This document shows, piece after piece, positions 53,009 to 63,996 of a DNA stretch of 64,000 bases. Positions within the stretch are counted from its first letter, which is position 1. Each line of letters starts with the position of its first letter. The notes under the pieces were generated by a model that saw nothing but the letters and a program-made list of their open reading frames with translations, ran no database searches and was not told where the DNA came from. This stretch comes from Sparassis latifolia (Eukaryota > Basidiomycota > Agaricomycetes > Polyporales > Sparassidaceae): the NCBI GenBank assembly GCA_018466975.1, contig CM031558.1, forward strand, positions 3,100,001 to 3,164,000, in the 5' to 3' direction. The translations under genes were made by a program, and so were the position numbers.

Positions 53009-53029
53009 GGCCTAACGCTACGTTAGGCC
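53009..53029. repeat. Perfect hairpin GGCCTAACG-CTA-CGTTAGGCC
   Basis: 9-bp perfect arms with a 3-nt loop, exactly where the satellite block ends. The arm contains CCTAACG, which recurs as CGTTAGG in the 54.5-kb array and as CCTAACG at the start of the 60.4-kb array. Confidence 0.85.
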
Positions 53030-54463
53030 GCCCGACTTTCCGCCCCTGTATCCCTTCCTTCCTCCCTCGTTTCGGTCCCTCGGCTATCTCAAAAGATCGC
53101 CCGACATCGAATCTACCAACTACCCGAAGATACAGTTCGACGGAGATCTGGGTCGCCGTGGCCACCGGCGGCAATCAGCCGACTTTCCCACCTCGCGCGT
53201 CTTCGACTCCTCGATTTTTTCTCGTCCTCACCCTCTACCCCTCACCTCATATTGTATATCGTCCGATAGCCTGGCCGTCTGGCTTCAAGATACTACCGAT
53301 TTCGGGAGGGGTTCAAGAGTTTGGTCGACGATACAGCCGGGCGAAGTGGCGGGGTGCGCGCCGGCGCGCCCTTGGTGAGTTCTCTCCCTTCGTTTCCGAT
53401 GTTGCGCACACTCAAATCCCTCGAACGCGATAGGGTCAGGTAGACGACGGTCGTGGCTACAAGACGAGACCCCGCTCGGGGAGAACGGCCTCGTCGTTGT
53501 GAAGATACAGGGAAGGAAGTGGGAGGGCGCGCACCAGCGGGAACGAGGTAAGCTGACCCACACTCAATGCTCTTCCATTCGCCCATCGAGGGGGCTCGAA
53601 ACTGCTTGCGAACCGTAGAACGGGTCGTAGGCAGCTTGTTTCTGCCTGCCTGTCTCATTTCTCGTCCAACGCAGCGTGTCAGTGTCGCGTTTCTCGAGCG
53701 ACACGACCTCTACCCCTCGCGGTCCCCTGCACCATCGAACACGAACGTTCGACCGCGCGTTCACCCTGGAGGGTTGTAGAGGGCCGAGGTGAGTATGAAG
53801 CACCTTTTCTTTGTTTTTCAGCCGTGCTAACACTTTGCAGCCACCTCGTTGTCGCGCCAGCCACTGCGGTGCAACAGCGGCGTGCAGCCCCCCTCCTTGC
53901 GGTCGCGGAGGCCCTGCGAAGCCTCACCACACCCCACTCCACCTCCCTGCACCCTCCGTCGACCCTCTGCTTCGCGCGCAGGCCCGCGACGATGAACGAC
54001 GGCAACTCTGTCGCCACACCGGCCTCCACCCTGTGCCTTGCGCTCCTCCAGGCTGTGGAACGCAAACGTTCGGCGGCATGTTTATTTTCGAAGGTCGAAG
54101 GGCATGCCAGGTAAGTAAACAATGCTTTTTTGTCCCTATCCCACTGTGCTAACATTTTGCAGTCTCATCGTTGTCGCGCCGGCCACCGCGGTGCCACAAC
54201 GACGTGCAGCCCCCTCCTCGCGGTCGCCTCAGCTCCTCGAAGCCTCGCCACACCCCACCCCACTTCCCCGCAGCCTGCTTCGGCCCTCTTCGACGTGCTC
54301 AGACAGACCACGGCGAACGACGGCACCACAGTGGTCGCGTCGGCCATTGCGTCGGCCATCGCGGAGGAACGACCTCGCCGACCTCCCTCCTAGCGGTCTC
54401 CAGGCCCCGACGCTGGCCCGGGTCACCTCAGAACACTGTAACGATTTCTATGCACCGTCGTAT
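53030..54463. repeat. Leader-like region with a ~300-bp tandem duplication
   Basis: No protein gene recognised. Two copies lie at about 53815-54120 and 54121-54400. Both start with a TTTTTGT...GTGCTAACA-TTTGCAG stretch that resembles a branch point and acceptor, continue with CGTTGTCGCGCC, CGTGCAGCCCC and CACACCCCAC, and the first ends at a GGTAAGTAA donor-like site. They may be non-coding leader exons of the helicase gene downstream. Before 53810 further donor-like GTGAG/GTAAGC sites follow each other without coding frame. Confidence 0.6.
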
Positions 54464-54611
54464 GAGCGTTATCTGAACGTTAGCTTGACGGAGCGTTATC
54501 TGAACGTTAGGCTGACGGAGCGTTACATCCGAACGTTAGGCTGACGGAGCGTTATCTGAACGTTAGGCTGACGGAGCGTTATCTTGATGTTAGATGACCG
54601 TTATCTGAATC
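54464..54611 (+). repeat. 27-bp tandem array upstream of helicase
   Basis: Units at 54464-54490, 54491-54517, 54518-54546 and 54547-54573, then a diverged fifth copy to 54599 and a partial sixth. The consensus starts GAGCGTTATCTGAACG and ends TTAGGCTGACG. Confidence 0.95.
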
Positions 54612-54943
54612 GCCGGACGATCACGTGCCTCTGGACTTGTCGCGTCGCGAAGTCTGATGCTGTACCTCTTCCGCACCACCGCGACAACGCTCATTCCTCT
54701 ATCTTCCGTGCTTGTGCTTCGAGATTACCTCCCCCCTGAAACGCTGGTGATTGTGTACCGGTGTGCAACTGGTACTGAGCTGTACAACAGCGAGGTGTCG
54801 TACAAGACGTTCGACATCCATAGTAGACGACAGCGTTAGGAAAGTCAGGACGCTTTCGAGTCTAGGTGTGTAGGCAGGCGACAATACGCTGGCTTTTTAT
54901 TCCAGGAGGTGGAAGGCTGAGTCGGTTGGCTCAGTGCACGTCG

Positions 54944-57900
54944 ATGGTCAGGAAGGCTGGCAGAAGTTCGCACAGGTGCTTGGTGCCTGGGTGTCGTCGT
55001 GCCGACGTACCACCTGCAGAAGCAAAGAATGATTATGAAACACACAAGAAGAAATACCACTCGACATCACACAGATTCGAATACTATGGTGAGTGACAGA
55101 CTGCATACAATTGACTAGCATCTAACGGTACGCAGGTCAATTGGTGACAATAGTACGAGACCCGATCAGTCAGCTGCTGCCGTGCCCATGTGGGAACGAA
55201 GCACACGCGAGGTACAACTTCCACAAGATCTTTCAACTCGTCAGGAAGACTCCACATCCGACTGGTGACGAATACCCGGACATCTTGGACACAGCGGAGG
55301 AGCCTCCTTTGAAGCGGACACGAGTAGAAGACACGGAGGGGGAAGATGGAAAACCCCCAAGCTGGTGTTCTGCGGCAACTGAGCAGGAAGGCGAGCAGGA
55401 AGGCAGAGCCATAGGGATGGGCTCGAGCTCGCGTGTGGACACCATTGGAGTGATTGCGACCGAATTGGAAGACGGGATCACGCAAACACCGGGGCTAGAT
55501 GATTCGGAGAGAGTAAACGACACGCATATAGCGAGGTTAGAAGAGTGTAAGGGGAAGGGTGTGCACGATGGTGAGGTCGACCGTCATGCGACCTGGCCGC
55601 TCTCAACCATCGAAGATGAAGATGCGGATGTGGACATCACAGACGATGATATGGCCGGCGAAGACGAGGAAATGCAGGAGGATTTCGAAGCGATCCCGCG
55701 AGAGAATGCGGAATGGCGAGAGACGTTGACCGCAGAGCGTCGGCTGTCCTTGGGCAGAGCAATAGAGAAGTGGGGGATTCGGGTGGACAGCAAATATAGA
55801 TTAACGGCTTGTCTGCCGTGCGGAATCCCAATACGCTGGGACCACATACACAGACACATAAGGAACAAGCATCCGACTGCTCGGAATGCGCCCCACGACG
55901 AGCGACTACCAGAGAAACACGATGTGCACAAAATTTTGTGCGAACTTGGCGCAGATCGGCCCGTGTCCGTCCTACCGGGCCCCATCCGTGCGATTGCAGG
56001 GTTGAAGATTGTGGATGGATTTAGATGCCGGGTGTCAGGATGCCTGGACGCAAAGGTTTTCTCGTCTGTCAAACGGTTCCACGAGCATTGCCGGGTCGAG
56101 CACCAAGATGTACCAGCTCGCGCTCGGGAGCGGAGCGTAGTGCGTGCGCATGTGCTGAGCATGGTCAGGAACAAGATGCAGAGGGTAGAGGTGCTGCCGG
56201 AGGAGGGGAGCACGGGAGCGGTTTCGATATTGGAGATCAAAGCTCACGCAGAAGGGGCCGGACTGCACAAGAGGATCGTCGTGTACAAAAGGGCAGAGAA
56301 TGCCCGGGCGCGAGGAACACTGCTGGCGCAGACGGATTGGGAGCAGAGTCTCATCGATGTGCATATACCTGCGCTTCGACAAACGGCAGACCCACCGTCG
56401 AAGGATACAGAATGCGAATTATACCGATTGATGGAAATGACGCGGGAATACTACAAGGACACGGCCGAGGAGATCGCAACGCTGAGGAGAGGCGTACGGC
56501 GGAAACTAGTATCGACACAACGTGCCGGGGAAATCGAGAGTAGACTGTTTAATCCACTGCAGGAAAAAGACACTCTCAGACGATATTCGGACTTTATGGC
56601 GACGTTTCTGTGCTTTCTCTTGCGACATATCGCGAAACCGGTGGATAATTTCATGGTCAGCATACACCCACAAACGCAAGCGCAGTTGTTGAAGCTTAGG
56701 GACGTCGTGTCCAAACAAACGACTGAGGCTCCCGAGGTGAAGGAACAGATCCACGCCGCGGTGATGTCGGTACTCACACACGTCAGTGATGAATATCGCG
56801 TAGACGAAAGCCGTGAACTCTTCACTCTATTCCTGATCGCACACCACATCAAGGACGACTCGGGCAACATGGTAAAAGCAGGGCATGTACCGCCGAATAT
56901 ATCGAAGGCGCAGTGGTGCTTTAGAGCGACAGCTGCACATGAAATCGTCCGAGTGTCGCCAATGTTCGGGAACGACCAAGAACAGTGAGTATCAATCGCG
57001 GACATACCAAGTGAGACGTGGAGCTGATACAATGACAGGGCTTATGAGTCGGTAATAAAGGATTACTTGGTCGAGGGCGAACCAACACTGTTCAACTCGC
57101 TGCGGCAAACAATGTCCTTCACGTCCGCGTTATCGTATCTGGAGCCGGGAATGGCGAGGTTCAATTGGGATGCGACGATGAGCGTGCTCTCGATGGATGG
57201 GCACGCGATACCCATGAAGAAGTTGCAAAAAGCAATACGTACCGCCGTGGATGAGATGGAAGGAATGATCGCGAAGTTATTTGGAGAATGCGAGTACAGA
57301 GATATACTCGCATACATCGATGAACGGATGGACCCGATGAATGAGTCGGACTGGTTCAGGGATCGACCACGGGAACCGAAAGTGGGCTACAGCGTCGTGA
57401 ACGAGCAGCAGAACGACCTGGCACGGTTTGGGGATAGACTGTTGGAGAAGCTCGTACGGGACGACCGGTTTTTCGTAATGCTCGATGGTACGACAGTGCC
57501 GCAGAGAGGCGAGTACTCATCGTCACGCGTGGGTTCTATAGCTGACCTAGAATGTAGCGAATATCAGAGAGTGGCTGAGCGTGCTGGACCAGCTCATTGG
57601 GACGTCGTACTTTGCGGTGATCTCGACGTGGGGTGGAGGTGCGAGAGGGACTGAGTGCAACATACGGCATGCTAATGATGGCGAGCGGGAGCTATACATC
57701 TTGAATGGGATGCTGACTATATGCACGACTTATGTGAAGACGCAGAGTATTCAGGGCCACGGGAGGATGATCGCCCGAGCACCCGCATTCGCCGTCTCGC
57801 GATTGTTGCTGTTGATGCTGGCCGTAATTCATCCCACTGCGGCCGTGCTTGCGACATACTTGATGGACGTTAAACTGGCCCGGAACTATCTTTCATATGT

Positions 57901-60363
57901 ATTTGTGCAACACGGTGCGATCATGACGAGCGAACGGTTTGGGAAGACCATTGCCCACCACACGGAGAAGTATTTGGGCGTCGAGATGGGGCTTCGAGAC
58001 TGGCGACAATTGATGTGCACCATTCTCGTGAATATAGCAAAGGTCGATTTTGGGGTGCCTGATGAAGATGACCAAGATTTGGAGGACATACACAAAGCGT
58101 TTGCGCACTCGAGAAGTGTGGGAGAATTACGTTATGCGTTGCAAGAGACGAACGCACTGTCTGAACTATCGCATACAGCGGTGGCGTCGACTCAGCGCGT
58201 AAGCCTGCGATGGCACAGGACGATAGGAATGGCGCATCCTCGCATTCAAGAGAAAGTTAGGGATGGAACAGCGGTCGACGAGATGGAGGGCATACAAGAG
58301 CATCAGTTGGCTCCCCTGGCAATGGCGATGGAACCCGCGATACGAAAGCTATTCGGTGAGGTGGAAGAAAAGCTGGTTCAAACTACGGTGGACGTAATGC
58401 AAGCCGTAGGTTCGGAGCAGATCAGACAGATCACGAGCGCACTTAGCGATTACATCCCCGCAAAACTACTAGAGAAACAGCGAATTCCGGCACTAGTCGT
58501 ACATCCGTCGTTGGTGAAGACGCTGCACACGGCGATACCTGCGCACGACAATCCACGATTCACGTCAGCGCAGCAGGCCGAGCTAGTGCAGTCCTCGCTA
58601 ACGGGAGACTACGTTCTAGCAGTGCTTCCGACTGGAAGTGGGAAAAGCATGGCTTTTTTTGCGGCGGCCACCCTGCTAGACAACGAGATGTTCATCGTTA
58701 TATCCCCGCTCACCGCGTTGACTGACGACTTGGCAAGACGACTAGCTAGCACGACAGTACCAGGTGGAAAATGGCCACACGTTTCGGACTATTTCGCCGC
58801 GCGAATAGTTCTCGTCTCCGCACATCAAGCAGGGACACAGGACTTTATGAACTGGGCAACATCGTATGCGGCGAGCATCCGACGAGTGTTCATCGACGAG
58901 TCGCACCACGTATACACCTCGGACTCGTACAGGGAATGCTTCAAACTATTCCACAAGCTGACGAGCCTCAAAAAACCCATCACGTTGATGTCGGCGACGA
59001 TATTCCCTACGTCTGTTCCGCGGTTGTGCGAAGTGATGGGAATAAATCCAATATTGCTGAGGGAGATTCGAGGATGCACAGCGAGGCCGAACATCAAATA
59101 CACGGTCGTGAAGGTCAAGAAGGAGGAGATGCTAGATGAACTGCATAAGTTTCATCAAGCGATTGAGTTGTCGGAGGACGAGCGAGGGCTAATATATTGC
59201 ACAACAACAAAAGCATGTCGACAAGTGGGGGAAAGGTTGGGGATAGAATATTACTACAGTGCAATACATCCGGACCCACATCAGAATAGCGAGGAGAAGA
59301 CACTGAGAGAAAGGAAGTGGAGAGACGGGCTGGATGGACCATCACGGTGGATGGCCGCGACGCTGTGTTTTGGGCAAGGGATCGACTTTCCGAAAGTGAG
59401 GTGGGTAATCCACGCGGAGGTACGGAACTTGATGGACTTCTGTCAAGAGTCGGGTCGCGCGGGGAGAGACGGAGAGCCTGCACGGTCGCATGTGCTGTGG
59501 TCGGAAGCACCTCGTCTAGACCCGAAAATGCGCGAGGAGGATGTGGGAGTGTTAGCGATGAGAGAGTTCCTACAGGCGCGGAGGTGCAGAAGATTGTCGA
59601 TGTGGCCTGTAGACGGATACGCGCAATCGTGCGCGGCGCTGGTCGGAGGGCAACTGTGCGATAGATGTGAAGAGGAGTCCGAGGTAAGAAAAGCCTTATA
59701 ACCTCAATCAGAATATCAACAAAAGTGCAGAAACCGCTCGGAACACTACGGCAACCGCTCAGGCTCGATTTGCCGCTGGCAACTAAGCAGCACCATCCAA
59801 AAGTTATATCACCAGCTACCACAGGAGCGGAAATTGAAGAACGTTATCGGGCAGGCCTCGAACAACTAGAGGTATTCAAAGAAATCCTGGATCGCGTGTC
59901 AGAAATGGGGTGCGCAGATTGCTGGGTTATTGGCGAAGAGAATACGCCGTGCGGAGAGCATACACACAAGCGGCCTCGTGAGTTTCACTCCTACATGAGC
60001 AGCATGAAGGCAGTCGACCATCCAGAAAATTTATACTGGCCATACTGCTACCTGTGCTGGATACCGTTCAGATACCCGTGCAAGCACGAGCCTATTCGGC
60101 GGAATTCGAAGGTGACACACGACAAATGTCCCTTCGCCGAAGTGGTACCCACATTGGTCTTACTGATATACATGTATGAAAAGAAGAAAGGAGCGATCTC
60201 GTACATGAGGAAGATTGCCGAGACTTTGGACATTCGGGAAGATCAATACAAGTACTTCTCCAGTTTCGTAGAATGGCTGAAAGCTCCCTGCTCAAGTCCG
60301 TCGGAAATCCCGCGCCCAATCGCATTCATTAATACATATTATAGATTGTTCCGAGCGTTATAG
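54944..60363 (+). CDS. RecQ-type helicase, telomere-linked-helicase-like
   Basis: Five exons (54944-55088, 55136-56984, 57039-57487, 57558-59683, 59731-60363) give an intact 1733-residue protein. The N-terminus has C2H2-like zinc patterns: CLVPGC with a distal HKKKYH, then CLPCGIPI with HIHRHIRNKH around 275. Long helical regions follow. The superfamily-2 helicase core has motif I TGSGKS at ~1173, motif II DESH at ~1261, SATIFP, motif V GQGIDFP, and motif VI QESGRAGRDGE at ~1443, the RecQ form. The C-terminus is Cys/His-rich (CADC, CGEHTH, CYLCW, CKHE). Size, N-terminal zinc sites and RecQ core match fungal subtelomeric helicases of the TLH/UTAS group by general knowledge; the role of those is unsettled. 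A co-oriented JmjC-like gene follows 408 nt downstream. Confidence 0.8.
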
Positions 60364-60427
60364 TACAAAGTACGGAATAAATATATATAAGCAGTGCACA
60401 GCCGAGCCCTTCAGAGCGACGCAGTGA

Positions 60428-60534
60428 GCCTAACGGTAAGACGACGGTAAGCCTAAGAGTAAGAATGACGGTAAGCTAACGGTAAGTCCAACGGTAAGTG
60501 TAACAGTAAGCATGACGGTAAGCTAACGGCGAGA
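60428..60534 (+). repeat. 12-bp tandem array of GGTAAG units
   Basis: GTAAG occurs at 60436, 60447, 60459, 60471, 60482, 60494, 60506 and 60518, that is every 11-12 nt, mostly inside AACGGTAAG or GACGGTAAG. The array starts with AGCCTAACG, the reverse complement of the CGTTAGGCT in the 54.5-kb array. Confidence 0.9.
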
Positions 60535-60770
60535 AGGAGGTGTCAGCACGTGCCAGCACGTGCTGCGGGAGCGCGCCAATGCTGGTTCAATCTCAACCAC
60601 GCACACCTGAGCTGGCCGTACAACGGAGAGTTCAGGTCCATCAAGGAGGGCGATCAATCAAGACATCTCAGAGGTTGCTGTACAACAGTGGACTTTGAGA
60701 AGGAAAACCGACGGCTCAAAGGATTCCGGAGGCGACGGCGTTGAGCGTAGAAGACGTTGTGTTAGATAGA

Positions 60771-63304
60771 ATGGCACCACGAATTAAGGAACTTACAGAG
60801 CAGCAGAAGGAAGAGCAGAAGGAAAGACAACGAGTAAGTAAGAGTGTATAAGCAACGCGATTTAAATGCAGGATGATAATGTACGCGAACCAGGAGGCGA
60901 ACAGATTGAGGCAGCGGAGATACGAGGAAAACTGGAAAGGGTGTGTAATAATTCGAAAGCAAGAGCTGACACTGAACACATATGAAGTGACCCAGCGTAT
61001 AAGGAGAAGAAGAAGGAAGCGAACAGAAAGGCGTACTTGAAGCGCAAGTAAGTAAAAAGCAACAAGTCGGGGATAATTGCGAGCTGATCGAAACGACAGG
61101 GCGAAGAAAGAGGAAAGAGAATCCGGTGAAGGCGATGAAGAAACGCACCAGGGAGACGAGGAGGGGCCAAGAAAACGCAGACGAACTGGCAAGGGAGCAG
61201 CGCGGACTGAGAGGGAGGATGAATCGACAGAAGCAGGGCCGTCGATGCAAGATCCTGGACAACCAATGGGAAGGGTAATTCCGAGGGTCCCGTCGATGTC
61301 ACCACCGCCGCTCCCGTCGATGTCACCACCGCCGCTCCCGCCGACGCCACCACCGCCGCTCCCGCCGACGTCACGACCACCGCTCCCGCCGGAGACAGCA
61401 CAGGCATTGCCACCGCCAGTCCTACCAGGGAGGAGTCCAGGAGGGTCAGCGAAGACCAGCCACCCACCGTTAGCGCTGTCTGCCGGACGAGAGCCACAAC
61501 TGCAGAACGCGGTGGAGAGAGGAAGCACACCGCCATGGGATGTAATAGATCCAGTGTTGCGCGTGTGCGCCCCAGCACCGCGAACATTTGGCGAACAGGG
61601 GACACAGACGGCAATCGTGATAAATGCTGATTGCACACCGTCGAGAACCGGCCGTACGTTCAACGATCAGAGAACACAGACAACCAGGGACGTCGATGCT
61701 CCACCCGACCGAAGACTTGACTACGTAACAGGGGTGCGGGGAATTCAAGTCCACGGAGCAGCCGAAACAGTGAGCTGGAGTGGCGGGCGTGAAACTGTTG
61801 TCCCGACGATCGTCGACGAGCATGGAGTCAACCTATTGCAAGAAGACGCGAATATGGTGAAGCACATGGCTCAGTATCCAGAAGCCGACGCAAGTTGCAA
61901 GTTCGTGAAAATCATCGACATGGATGAAGATGGAGCAGTCCTCGACATGGCTAGGCAGGAACTAGCCCAGGGGAAAGTAGTTGTCGTGAAGAATGCGTAT
62001 AAAAGGAAGCCTTTCGAGTTGACATTGGAAGGACTGGAGGACCGATTCGGTATACCTCCTACGCAAGCCGTTGTCATGCACGGTGAGTAAAACCAAACAG
62101 CGGGAAAATATAATCCATGTATGAAATCCCCGCAGATTTAAAAATTCGCACCGAAGAGCCCACGAACCCGTATGTACAAGGAACTGTCGAGGAGCTAATT
62201 AAAAATGTCACGAATGTGGAGCAAGGCCGATTCGTGCTCGACTGCCCACTAGCGCAAGGTACGGCGCCTGAACCATTCCAGTAAGTGTACTCTTTGGTAA
62301 TATATACGAGATTGACTGCCGTGTCAGACTGCTAGACGATGGCCTCGTGGTGGGGTGGAACCAGACGACAACGGAGTATCCGCTGGGCGGAATCACGGTG
62401 CACCCAGAAAACTTCACAGTGAGGCACTGGGGTCTTATTCACCAAGCGGGGGTTTTGACGTACCCACACCACGACGCTGATGGGGCTGGCACATACGTCA
62501 CGCCTGTATCGGGCACGAAATTTTGGACGTTCTTGAGGTTGAAGCACGAGTATGATCACGTCAACAGAACGAAGGTGACGCAATATTACCGGGATGTATG
62601 TAGGTATGTGAAGACGTCCGAGGAAGGCGAATACACGTATCAGCAAGTATGCGATGGATTCACCGTGTTTGGTGAGCCGGGAGATCTTATGTGAGTGCTA
62701 GTAGCACATGAGTACACAAGGTTGACTGAAATGAACCGTAGACTTCAACCGCCCGGTCATTTTCACATGGTATACACACCGACGGCGTCGTTTACAACAG
62801 GCGGACACTTCTTGTCATACGACACTATGCATCTCACCGAGTTATCGCGCCACATCGACAAAGAAAATAGCCTCATGACGACTAATCAAACTCATGAGCA
62901 CTGTTTGGAAACCTTGTGCAGGATGGTGCTCGCGTTACCGCGGATATCAAGGAGACGTCGTAAGTCTAAGGATTTTTAATCAAGAAACACAAACTAACGA
63001 GACTGCAGGGCTCTACAAACGATCTCTCATAGCCTTGTGCCTAATGGTAGAGTTAAATGGCTTCTTCGAACCGAAGAAATCCGACCGGTGGGAGCCGCTA
63101 AAGGCAAGCTACTTGGAAGAGGCTCGCAAGGTCGCCCGAGCGGTGAGGAAACATTTAGGATACTCGAACTCGGACGCCGCGAAGGTGTGGCTGCATGGCA
63201 AGGAACATGACAGGGATTCTCCGGGAGACGTTGTAGACGTCGAAGAACTTTCGTCATCGTTGAGCGCATTTTTGAAGGGAGATCAGGACGTGCGTAGGGC
63301 ATGA
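60771..63304 (+). CDS. JmjC-type 2OG-Fe(II) oxygenase-like protein
   Basis: Exons 60771-60833, 60872-60944, 60996-61047, 61100-62082, 62136-62280, 62328-62690, 62742-62959 and 63009-63304 give 730 residues. The N-terminus is basic and charged (KEKKKEANRKAYLKRK), then Pro-rich with MSPPPLP-type repeats around 105-140. The C-terminal half fits a JmjC/cupin fold: WGLIHQAGVLTYPHHDADG supplies the metal-binding H-x-D (His485, Asp487), GTKFWTF the likely 2OG-contact segment, and PGHFHMVYTP the distal His (566 or 568). This suggests an oxygenase acting on protein or nucleic acid; the substrate is unknown. The intron at 60945-60995 uses a GTAATA donor; if it is not removed, an in-frame TGA at 60983 ends the frame. 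The gene lies 408 nt behind the helicase, same strand. Confidence 0.7.
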
Positions 63305-63432: not shown

Positions 63433-63996
63433 TCAGAAGGAGGGATGAAGACGATTAGGCACATGCAAACCTGATATCTTCAGGTCTTTGTCAGGGAGAG
63501 ACCGCTGAACGGCGAAGTATGCGCATACAAGATCGACCAAATTCGTGATGAGGCGATTTGGAGAGCCGCCGCCCCGGGTGCCAGGCTCCCGGGTGCCAGG
63601 CTGACGGAGCCAGGTCGCATAGGCAGAGGAAGTGGACGTCAACAGGTGGACAGTATGGTCGGGGAGCATGAGGTACTCGAAGACGTGGTCGCGGACATCG
63701 ACAACGTGCATGATGATCCATGCCAAGCCCAGGAAGCACTCCTGGAGCCTGTCATCATTGCAAACTGTCTTCGATGCAGAGATCTTAGTCCTATGGCCGA
63801 AGGCTTCCCAGCTAGGGGTTCCGCAAGACCAGCAAGCGCGAGGTTTGACCTCGGAAGACCTGTACTGGGTGCGGAAGGAGTGGTAAGCGGACGAAATGCC
63901 CATGTCGATGAGATCGCAGTCAAAAGCGGTAGTGTGAGGCGTGATAGCGTCCTCAGCCAAGACGACATGACATATACAAGTATTGCATATGTCCAA
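63433..63996 (-). CDS. C-terminal part of a second helicase-like gene (partial)
   Basis: The frame enters from the right edge of the window and ends at 63433 (187 codons seen). It begins DICNTCICHVV and continues with a Cys/His/aromatic pattern (RACWSCGTPSWEAFGH, then CNDDRLQECFLG). This echoes the C-terminal tail of the intact helicase at 59.9-60.3 kb, where CADC is followed by YCYLCWIPFRYPC and a late Cys. I infer that this is the 3' end of another RecQ/TLH-like gene transcribed towards the JmjC gene. The helicase core would lie outside the window. A 15-bp direct repeat CCCGGGTGCCAGGCT occurs in it at about 63574-63602. Confidence 0.5.
   Translation of the reverse strand: MDICNTCICHVVLAEDAITPHTTAFDCDLIDMGISSAYHSFRTQYRSSEVKPRACWSCGTPSWEAFGHRTKISASKTVCNDDRLQECFLGLAWIIMHVVDVRDHVFEYLMLPDHTVHLLTSTSSAYATWLRQPGTREPGTRGGGSPNRLITNLVDLVCAYFAVQRSLPDKDLKISGLHVPNRLHPSF

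Follow-up and report, generated by a model that had tools for sequence, protein, structure and literature searches.

The 64,000-nucleotide stretch of Sparassis latifolia DNA analysed here (the window, C7:3100001-3164000, where C numbers denote contigs of the 41.4-Mb genome of the same fungus) carries, near a chromosome end, a RecQ-type helicase gene followed by a JmjC-type gene. We interpret the two as a subtelomeric two-gene unit of the telomere-linked helicase (TLH) type, in which one protein would join OrsD-type, recombinase-like and RecQ parts, and the other would be an anti-silencing JmjC protein of the KDM2/KDM7 class; in our judgement this reading has about an even chance of being right. 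The gene anatomy and the class of the JmjC protein are the strongest part of the analysis, while the recombinase-like domain is both its most interesting and its least certain part. The recombinase-like region between the OrsD part and the helicase, and the KDM2/KDM7 class, are new relative to an earlier note on this DNA, which had proposed a mobile or subtelomeric helicase-oxygenase unit.

Two neighbouring genes close to a telomere

The genes and the domains of the helicase protein are the following:
54944 to 60363, plus strand: RecQ-type helicase gene (spliced open frame; Pfam DEAD and Helicase_C; PDB profile search with relatives)
55786 to 56106, plus strand: OrsD-type zinc-finger domain (PF12013)
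57569 to 58168, plus strand: predicted tyrosine-recombinase-like catalytic domain (AF2 model and VIA-align; residue invariance)
58571 to 59473, plus strand: RecQ helicase core (DEAD, Helicase_C; residues 1158-1458)
60771 to 63304, plus strand: JmjC gene (spliced open frame; homologues; KDM2/7 profile and fold of relatives; residues)

Neither gene is covered by one open frame; both become open on removal of 11 inferred introns with GT-AG borders and lengths of 47-60 nt (one alternative intron has 64). With splice sites inferred from sequence, the helicase gene has five exons (54944-55088, 55136-56984, 57039-57512 or 57528, 57568 or 57593-59683, and 59731-60363) encoding 1738 aa with 0 internal stops; the junction 57512/57568 versus 57528/57593 is ambiguous, the difference being 3 aa. 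The JmjC gene, its splice sites placed in the same way, has eight exons (60771-60833, 60894-60940, 60988-61047, 61100-62082, 62136-62280, 62328-62690, 62742-62959 and 63009-63304) encoding 724 aa. The earlier note had described an intact RecQ-type helicase of 1733 residues and an intact JmjC-type protein of 730 residues, encoded on the same strand 408 nt apart; both proteins and their arrangement hold, with the slightly different lengths given above and a gap of 407 nt.

A TLH is required to have a RecQ-type superfamily 2 core, and one was found here. In the window protein DEAD and Helicase_C score above the Pfam cut-offs, and the RecQ class comes from a profile of alignment A1, whose helicase part was built from 19 relatives (almost wholly relatives, then) and whose best PDB matches are RecQ1, BLM and RecQ, with E from 1.1e-41. 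The OrsD-type domain reached 28.3 bits in the genome scan (above cut-off) and 23.2 bits, short of the 26.6 cut-off, when the whole protein was scanned, and was matched at E <= 10 in 15 of the 20 A1 members. Elsewhere in the genome, an open frame at C10:2934138-2934476 resembles the helicase in its cysteine-rich C-terminal part only (31% identical); judged by eye, it keeps a similar cysteine-rich stretch.

The second protein is supported as a diverged member of the KDM2/KDM7 class with iron- and 2-oxoglutarate-binding residues. The iron ligands HxD...H and the 2-oxoglutarate residues T and K are present in the window protein (T477, H480 and D482, encoded at 62458-62475, together with K497 and H562), and each occurs in 14 of 15 aligned sequences, the window's included. 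The class was assigned through relatives: a model of homologue P0001 and a profile of 14 homologues both place the fold nearest KDM2/7 (PHF8/KDM2A-like), and structural alignments of the homologue to KDM2/KDM7 proteins have 9-14% identity. Pfam JmjC was undetected in the window protein at E <= 1, and the N-terminal region is basic and proline-rich. In the genome, Pfam JmjC has 16 matches, at about 15 places other than this locus; 10 of the 16 span almost the same section of the profile, each within one open frame, are scattered over contigs and possibly form a dispersed family.

The subtelomeric location suspected earlier is supported. Contig C7 (3,178,641 bases) ends in mixed TTAGG/TTAGGG repeats from near base 3,178,479, about 15 kb past the JmjC stop, which places the whole block under study 15-26 kb from the chromosome end. 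The pair itself lies 15-24 kb from the telomere, with the helicase stop 18.3 kb and the JmjC stop 15.3 kb short of the contig end, as a telomere-adjacent TLH would be expected to lie. A TLH would further be expected to be silent at telomeres and to be induced as they shorten.

Linkage of the two genes seems to be conserved in some Boletales. Among the matches listed, the closest protein relatives of both are from Agaricomycetes, and the top matches for both we take to belong to Boletales. Both proteins were matched in six named fungi (metagenome entries were left out of this count, and one list held the best 120 of 267 matches), and three of the six have one helicase and one JmjC match on contigs of equal size: Imleria badia (40,287), Lanmaoa asiatica (157,640; locus tags 7657 and 7662) and Boletus edulis (59,101). 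The third of these pairs was added by a further JmjC profile search aimed at linked pairs, which gave at least four proteins, one of them new (P0135, Boletus edulis). Equal size was taken to mean the same contig, and the evidence concerns co-location rather than gene order or distance.

A predicted recombinase-like region in the helicase protein

The stretch that follows the OrsD part and precedes the helicase core has a predicted fold (AF2 model, VIA-align) closest to that of the Cre/Xer tyrosine recombinases, and this predicted fold together with the catalytic pattern suggests a tyrosine-recombinase-like domain. In the VIA table the 19 highest rows are all from the same enzyme superfamily, represented by three distinct proteins with variants of these, and every one outranks the first unrelated row. 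The candidate catalytic residues are R849, K880, R969, H1003 and Y1012 (codons at 57644, 57737, 58004, 58106 and 58133). This R, K, R, H, Y set is invariant in all 20 sequences counted, namely the window and 19 of 22 relatives, with R, S or A in place of the box-II H. Three distant relatives largely keep the candidate pattern; P0037 carries H in box II, and P0038 and P0039 retain H-x8-Y. The R-x2-E, K, R and H-x8-Y spacings resemble those of Cre. Among viral models, Foldseek placed entries named integrase at ranks 1, 6, 9 and 10, the best E being 0.078 and none reaching 0.001. Pfam gave no match to DUF3435 or another known Starship/Crypton captain domain at E <= 10 in the 20 members of A1 and the 12 members of A3, within a search whose HMMER filters drop most matches with E above about 0.1.

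Repeats, partial copies and possible boundaries

Around and within the pair, repeats and duplicated pieces were located as follows:
52993 to about 54430, no strand: multi-copy subtelomeric repeat of ~1.4 kb (own-genome DNA search)
54464 to 54584, plus strand: 27-bp tandem array with CGTTAGGCTGACG (Tandem Repeats Finder, TRF; pattern search)
54603 to 55560, plus strand: helicase upstream region and 5' exons, with a 96% identical relic at C1:1401491-1402448
60430 to 60529, plus strand: intergenic 12/35/47-bp array upstream of the JmjC start (TRF)
60908 to 61029, plus strand: 122 bp of the JmjC gene, with a 100% identical reversed copy at C7:3178353-3178474
63598 to 63610, plus strand: right-hand direct copy of AGGCTGACGGAGC, a candidate right boundary, inside a minus-strand open frame

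Protein and DNA searches of the genome found one intact locus and no multi-copy state of the pair; the counts are lower bounds, the protein search having used the last 1073 helicase residues and the DNA search covering the 5' part. Neither an empty site nor a second complete copy was found by these searches in the assembly. The C1 relic and the window copy share a left edge at about 54603, and their left flanks differ. At C1:1401491-1403015 the helicase promoter and first exons continue in frame into a gene with a weak BTB match (E 0.003, below cut-off), possibly a chimera at a subtelomere that has become internal. The 122-bp JmjC piece joins satellite to telomere repeats, as filler DNA might at a chromosome end that has healed. 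Taken together, the relic and this piece show that parts of the pair are involved in rearrangements at chromosome ends. Where a Starship or Crypton would show several copies with common ends, or an empty site, we found one shared left edge and no complete second copy. Set against the multi-copy habit of TLHs, one intact copy and one 5' relic were found, and some ends may be unassembled, since only 6 of the 20 contig starts read (C2, C3, C4, C9, C11 and C15) begin with the complementary telomere repeat; among contig ends, that of C7 was read.

The earlier note had taken a hairpin as the left edge of the pair and had seen the pair as bracketed by matching arrays. The hairpin GGCCTAACG...CGTTAGGCC is real (53009-53029), but it was rejected as the edge because it lies at the start of the separate ~1.4-kb repeat. 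Longer matches to that repeat, 80-93% identical, lie on C2, C3, C4, C5, C7 (start), C9 and C14, mostly near contig ends, and also internally on C11 and C1; the repeat holds two intron-like stretches (GTGAGT/GTAAGT ... TTTGCAG) within repeated sub-units. The 27-bp array upstream and the 12-bp array between the genes were both recovered by TRF, and CGTTAGGC occurs six times in the window, always within 53009-63304 (100 shuffles: mean 1.71, maximum 5). The case for bracketing is nevertheless weak: the hairpin is part of a different repeat, and the ends of C2, C5 and C9 and the neighbourhood of the C7 telomere also hold sequence resembling the 27-bp array, with no helicase copy found at these places.

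Another candidate boundary is the 13-mer AGGCTGACGGAGC. It stands three times in the 27-bp array (54509, 54538 and 54565) and once on the right, 294 bp past the JmjC stop; two further occurrences elsewhere bring the number in 41.4 Mb to six, and a reversed control pattern occurs twice. The longest match to the left edge among 50 half-overlapping control chunks was 12 bp, reached in six of them (4 of 42 plus 2 of 8). Since the controls reach 12 bp, the 13-bp direct repeat bracketing the pair is suggestive only as an element boundary.

The surroundings hold further features. On the telomere side of the pair, some 4.3 kb short of the telomere repeats, is a TET/JBP-type oxygenase frame (C7:3173839-3174219); Tet_JBP has 44 matches in the genome, of which 32 are above cut-off. 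Beyond the JmjC gene, window positions 63710-63977 have an 80% DNA match to C14:828053-828320, 49 kb from the C14 end, and sit in a 444-aa minus-strand open frame with no Pfam match. At C11:3112226-3116842, subtelomere-type repeats lie well inside a 4.58-Mb contig, perhaps marking an old chromosome fusion.

A proposed chromosome-end unit and its relation to known systems

If the two genes form a unit, the first would act on subtelomeric DNA by unwinding and perhaps by strand exchange, so that copies would spread and be lost via recombination between chromosome ends. The second may strip repressive methyl marks off nucleosomes near the telomere, the role proposed for Epe1 in fission yeast, and would thus keep the unit expressed within silent chromatin. 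The earlier proposal that the unit demodifies its target agrees with the KDM2/7-type JmjC class (family profile, fold of relatives), while activity and substrate are conjectural. One may go further and speculate that TLHs of this type are recombinase-helicase fusions, subtelomeric site-specific mobile elements, and that this lineage recruited a KDM2/7-type demethylase as an anti-silencing gene, the unit moving between ends and opening chromatin where it lands; we consider this extension quite improbable. Helicase genes at fungal chromosome ends have been known for decades, and no function has been agreed upon. Should the recombinase-like catalytic domain be confirmed, the function of TLHs would become a testable question of DNA cleavage and movement at telomeres, and a linked histone demethylase would be rare: a chromosome-end unit carrying its own escape from silencing.

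Several results weigh against the two-gene unit with its recombinase-like part. The model of the middle region is weak, with a predicted local distance difference test score (pLDDT) of 60, and below 50 in the segments holding R849, H1003 and Y1012; the best Foldseek E was 0.47 and the second match an ion channel. Pfam, PHROG and NCBIfam searches matched no known tyrosine-recombinase family profile, HMMER filters discarding most matches with E above about 0.1, and a PDB-sequence search was likewise negative. Comparison by hhalign with XerC, XerD, FimB, FimE, lambda Int, P2 Int and Cre gave nothing better than reversed controls. That the JmjC protein acts on histones and serves the helicase gene is something we infer. 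The two contigs differ in size in Suillus paluster, Hygrophoropsis aurantiaca and Boletus coccyginus; the paired unit of the earlier note therefore has three of the six fungi, with one of each protein on equal-sized contigs, on its side and the other three against it. Finally, known TLHs are multi-copy in the accounts available, whereas the genome here shows one intact pair, one helicase 5' relic (C1) and one 122-bp JmjC fragment.

Other explanations have to be set beside the two-gene unit. The middle domain could be a mostly helical region other than a recombinase, its conserved residues having another role such as DNA binding and its structural match reflecting a common arrangement. This is somewhat unlikely, given that the top 19 VIA rows fall in a single enzyme superfamily ahead of anything unrelated, that the spacings are Cre-like, and that distant relatives keep box-II H (P0037) or H-x8-Y (P0038 and P0039). 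Alternatively, the recombinase-like domain might drive a mobile element, the pair having been inserted between 13-bp sites (AGGCTGACGGAGC at 54565 and 63598) with the demethylase as anti-silencing cargo. The recombinase-like fold with its invariant residues would fit this, as would a 13-mer with four of its six genomic occurrences flanking the pair and a length reached by 0 of 50 control chunks, and two left-part copies with a common edge near 54603 and different flanks. Yet the C1 copy starts 25 bp inside the 13-bp site, 13 bp is just one base better than what 6 of 50 control chunks reach, and the right 13-mer lies in an opposite-strand open frame and overlaps a 15-bp tandem repeat. The mobility suggested earlier can thus call on the shared left edge and the 13-bp direct repeat, but not on an empty site or a second complete copy, neither of which was found. 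An element driven by the recombinase-like domain we hold to be unlikely.

An ordinary TLH gene might also stand beside an unrelated JmjC gene by chance, both surviving in a recombining subtelomere. Subtelomeres collect unrelated genes, a TET/JBP-type frame is also found between the pair and the telomere, and the 16 JmjC matches at about 15 other places would supply neighbours; but the genes lie on the same strand 407 nt apart here, and their relatives share equal-sized contigs in three of six fungi, which makes chance unlikely. A mis-join at a repeat-rich contig end could have given the 122-bp JmjC fragment, identical to the gene, between satellite and telomere. However, both genes read open once their 11 inferred introns are removed, the parts searched are matched by homologues over most of their length, and the contig continues for about 15 kb to the telomere; an assembly artefact is extremely improbable.

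Returning to the two-gene unit, its helicase resembles the telomere-linked RecQ-like helicases, which include Ustilago UTASa/UTASb, Schizosaccharomyces tlh, the TLHs of Magnaporthe, Metarhizium and Fusarium, and those of Agaricus bisporus var. burnettii. The likeness lies in the RecQ core, the place near telomeres (PMC8466458, PMC12857005, PMC7473861) and the OrsD-type domain reported for Ustilago UTASb (PMC10532341). Four copies are given for S. pombe (PMC8466458) and 19 TLH gene models for A. bisporus var. burnettii, where, in Agaricus and other fungi, the authors found only the helicase core and no other domain (PMC7473861). Compared by description rather than by sequence, the window gene is unlike these TLHs in its recombinase-like domain and its partner JmjC gene. 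Literature searches covering few subscription journals, judged by titles and the starts of abstracts, yielded no treatment of a tyrosine recombinase joined with a RecQ helicase or with Crypton in fungi; for a JmjC protein combined with a RecQ helicase and a transposon in basidiomycetes they gave no paper, and for a JmjC dioxygenase combined with a helicase and a transposable element in fungi none that by its title treats the subject.

Tyrosine recombinases carry catalytic R, K, (H)xxR, H/W and Y and cut and exchange DNA strands at a defined site; eukaryotic ones include Crypton and Starship captains. The middle region is like tyrosine recombinases (Cre, XerH, phage integrases) in predicted fold and R/K/R/H/Y pattern, and unlike them in having no detectable sequence-profile similarity, R, S or A for the box-II H, and a fusion to a RecQ helicase. 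Basidiomycete TET/JBP oxygenase genes are linked to KDZ transposons, and the pair is like them in placing a 2-oxoglutarate oxygenase gene amid fungal DNA rich in repeats; its oxygenase is, however, a JmjC protein, and the TET/JBP frame nearer the telomere is separate. The likeness to fission yeast Epe1 is one of supposed function. The closest parallel of the JmjC protein is with the KDM2/KDM7 demethylases (PHF8, KIAA1718, KDM2A, ceKDM7A), with which it shares the fold, as modelled for a homologue, and the T/H/D/K/H cofactor residues, and from which it is set apart by the low identity of that homologue, its basic and proline-rich N-terminus and its subtelomeric place.

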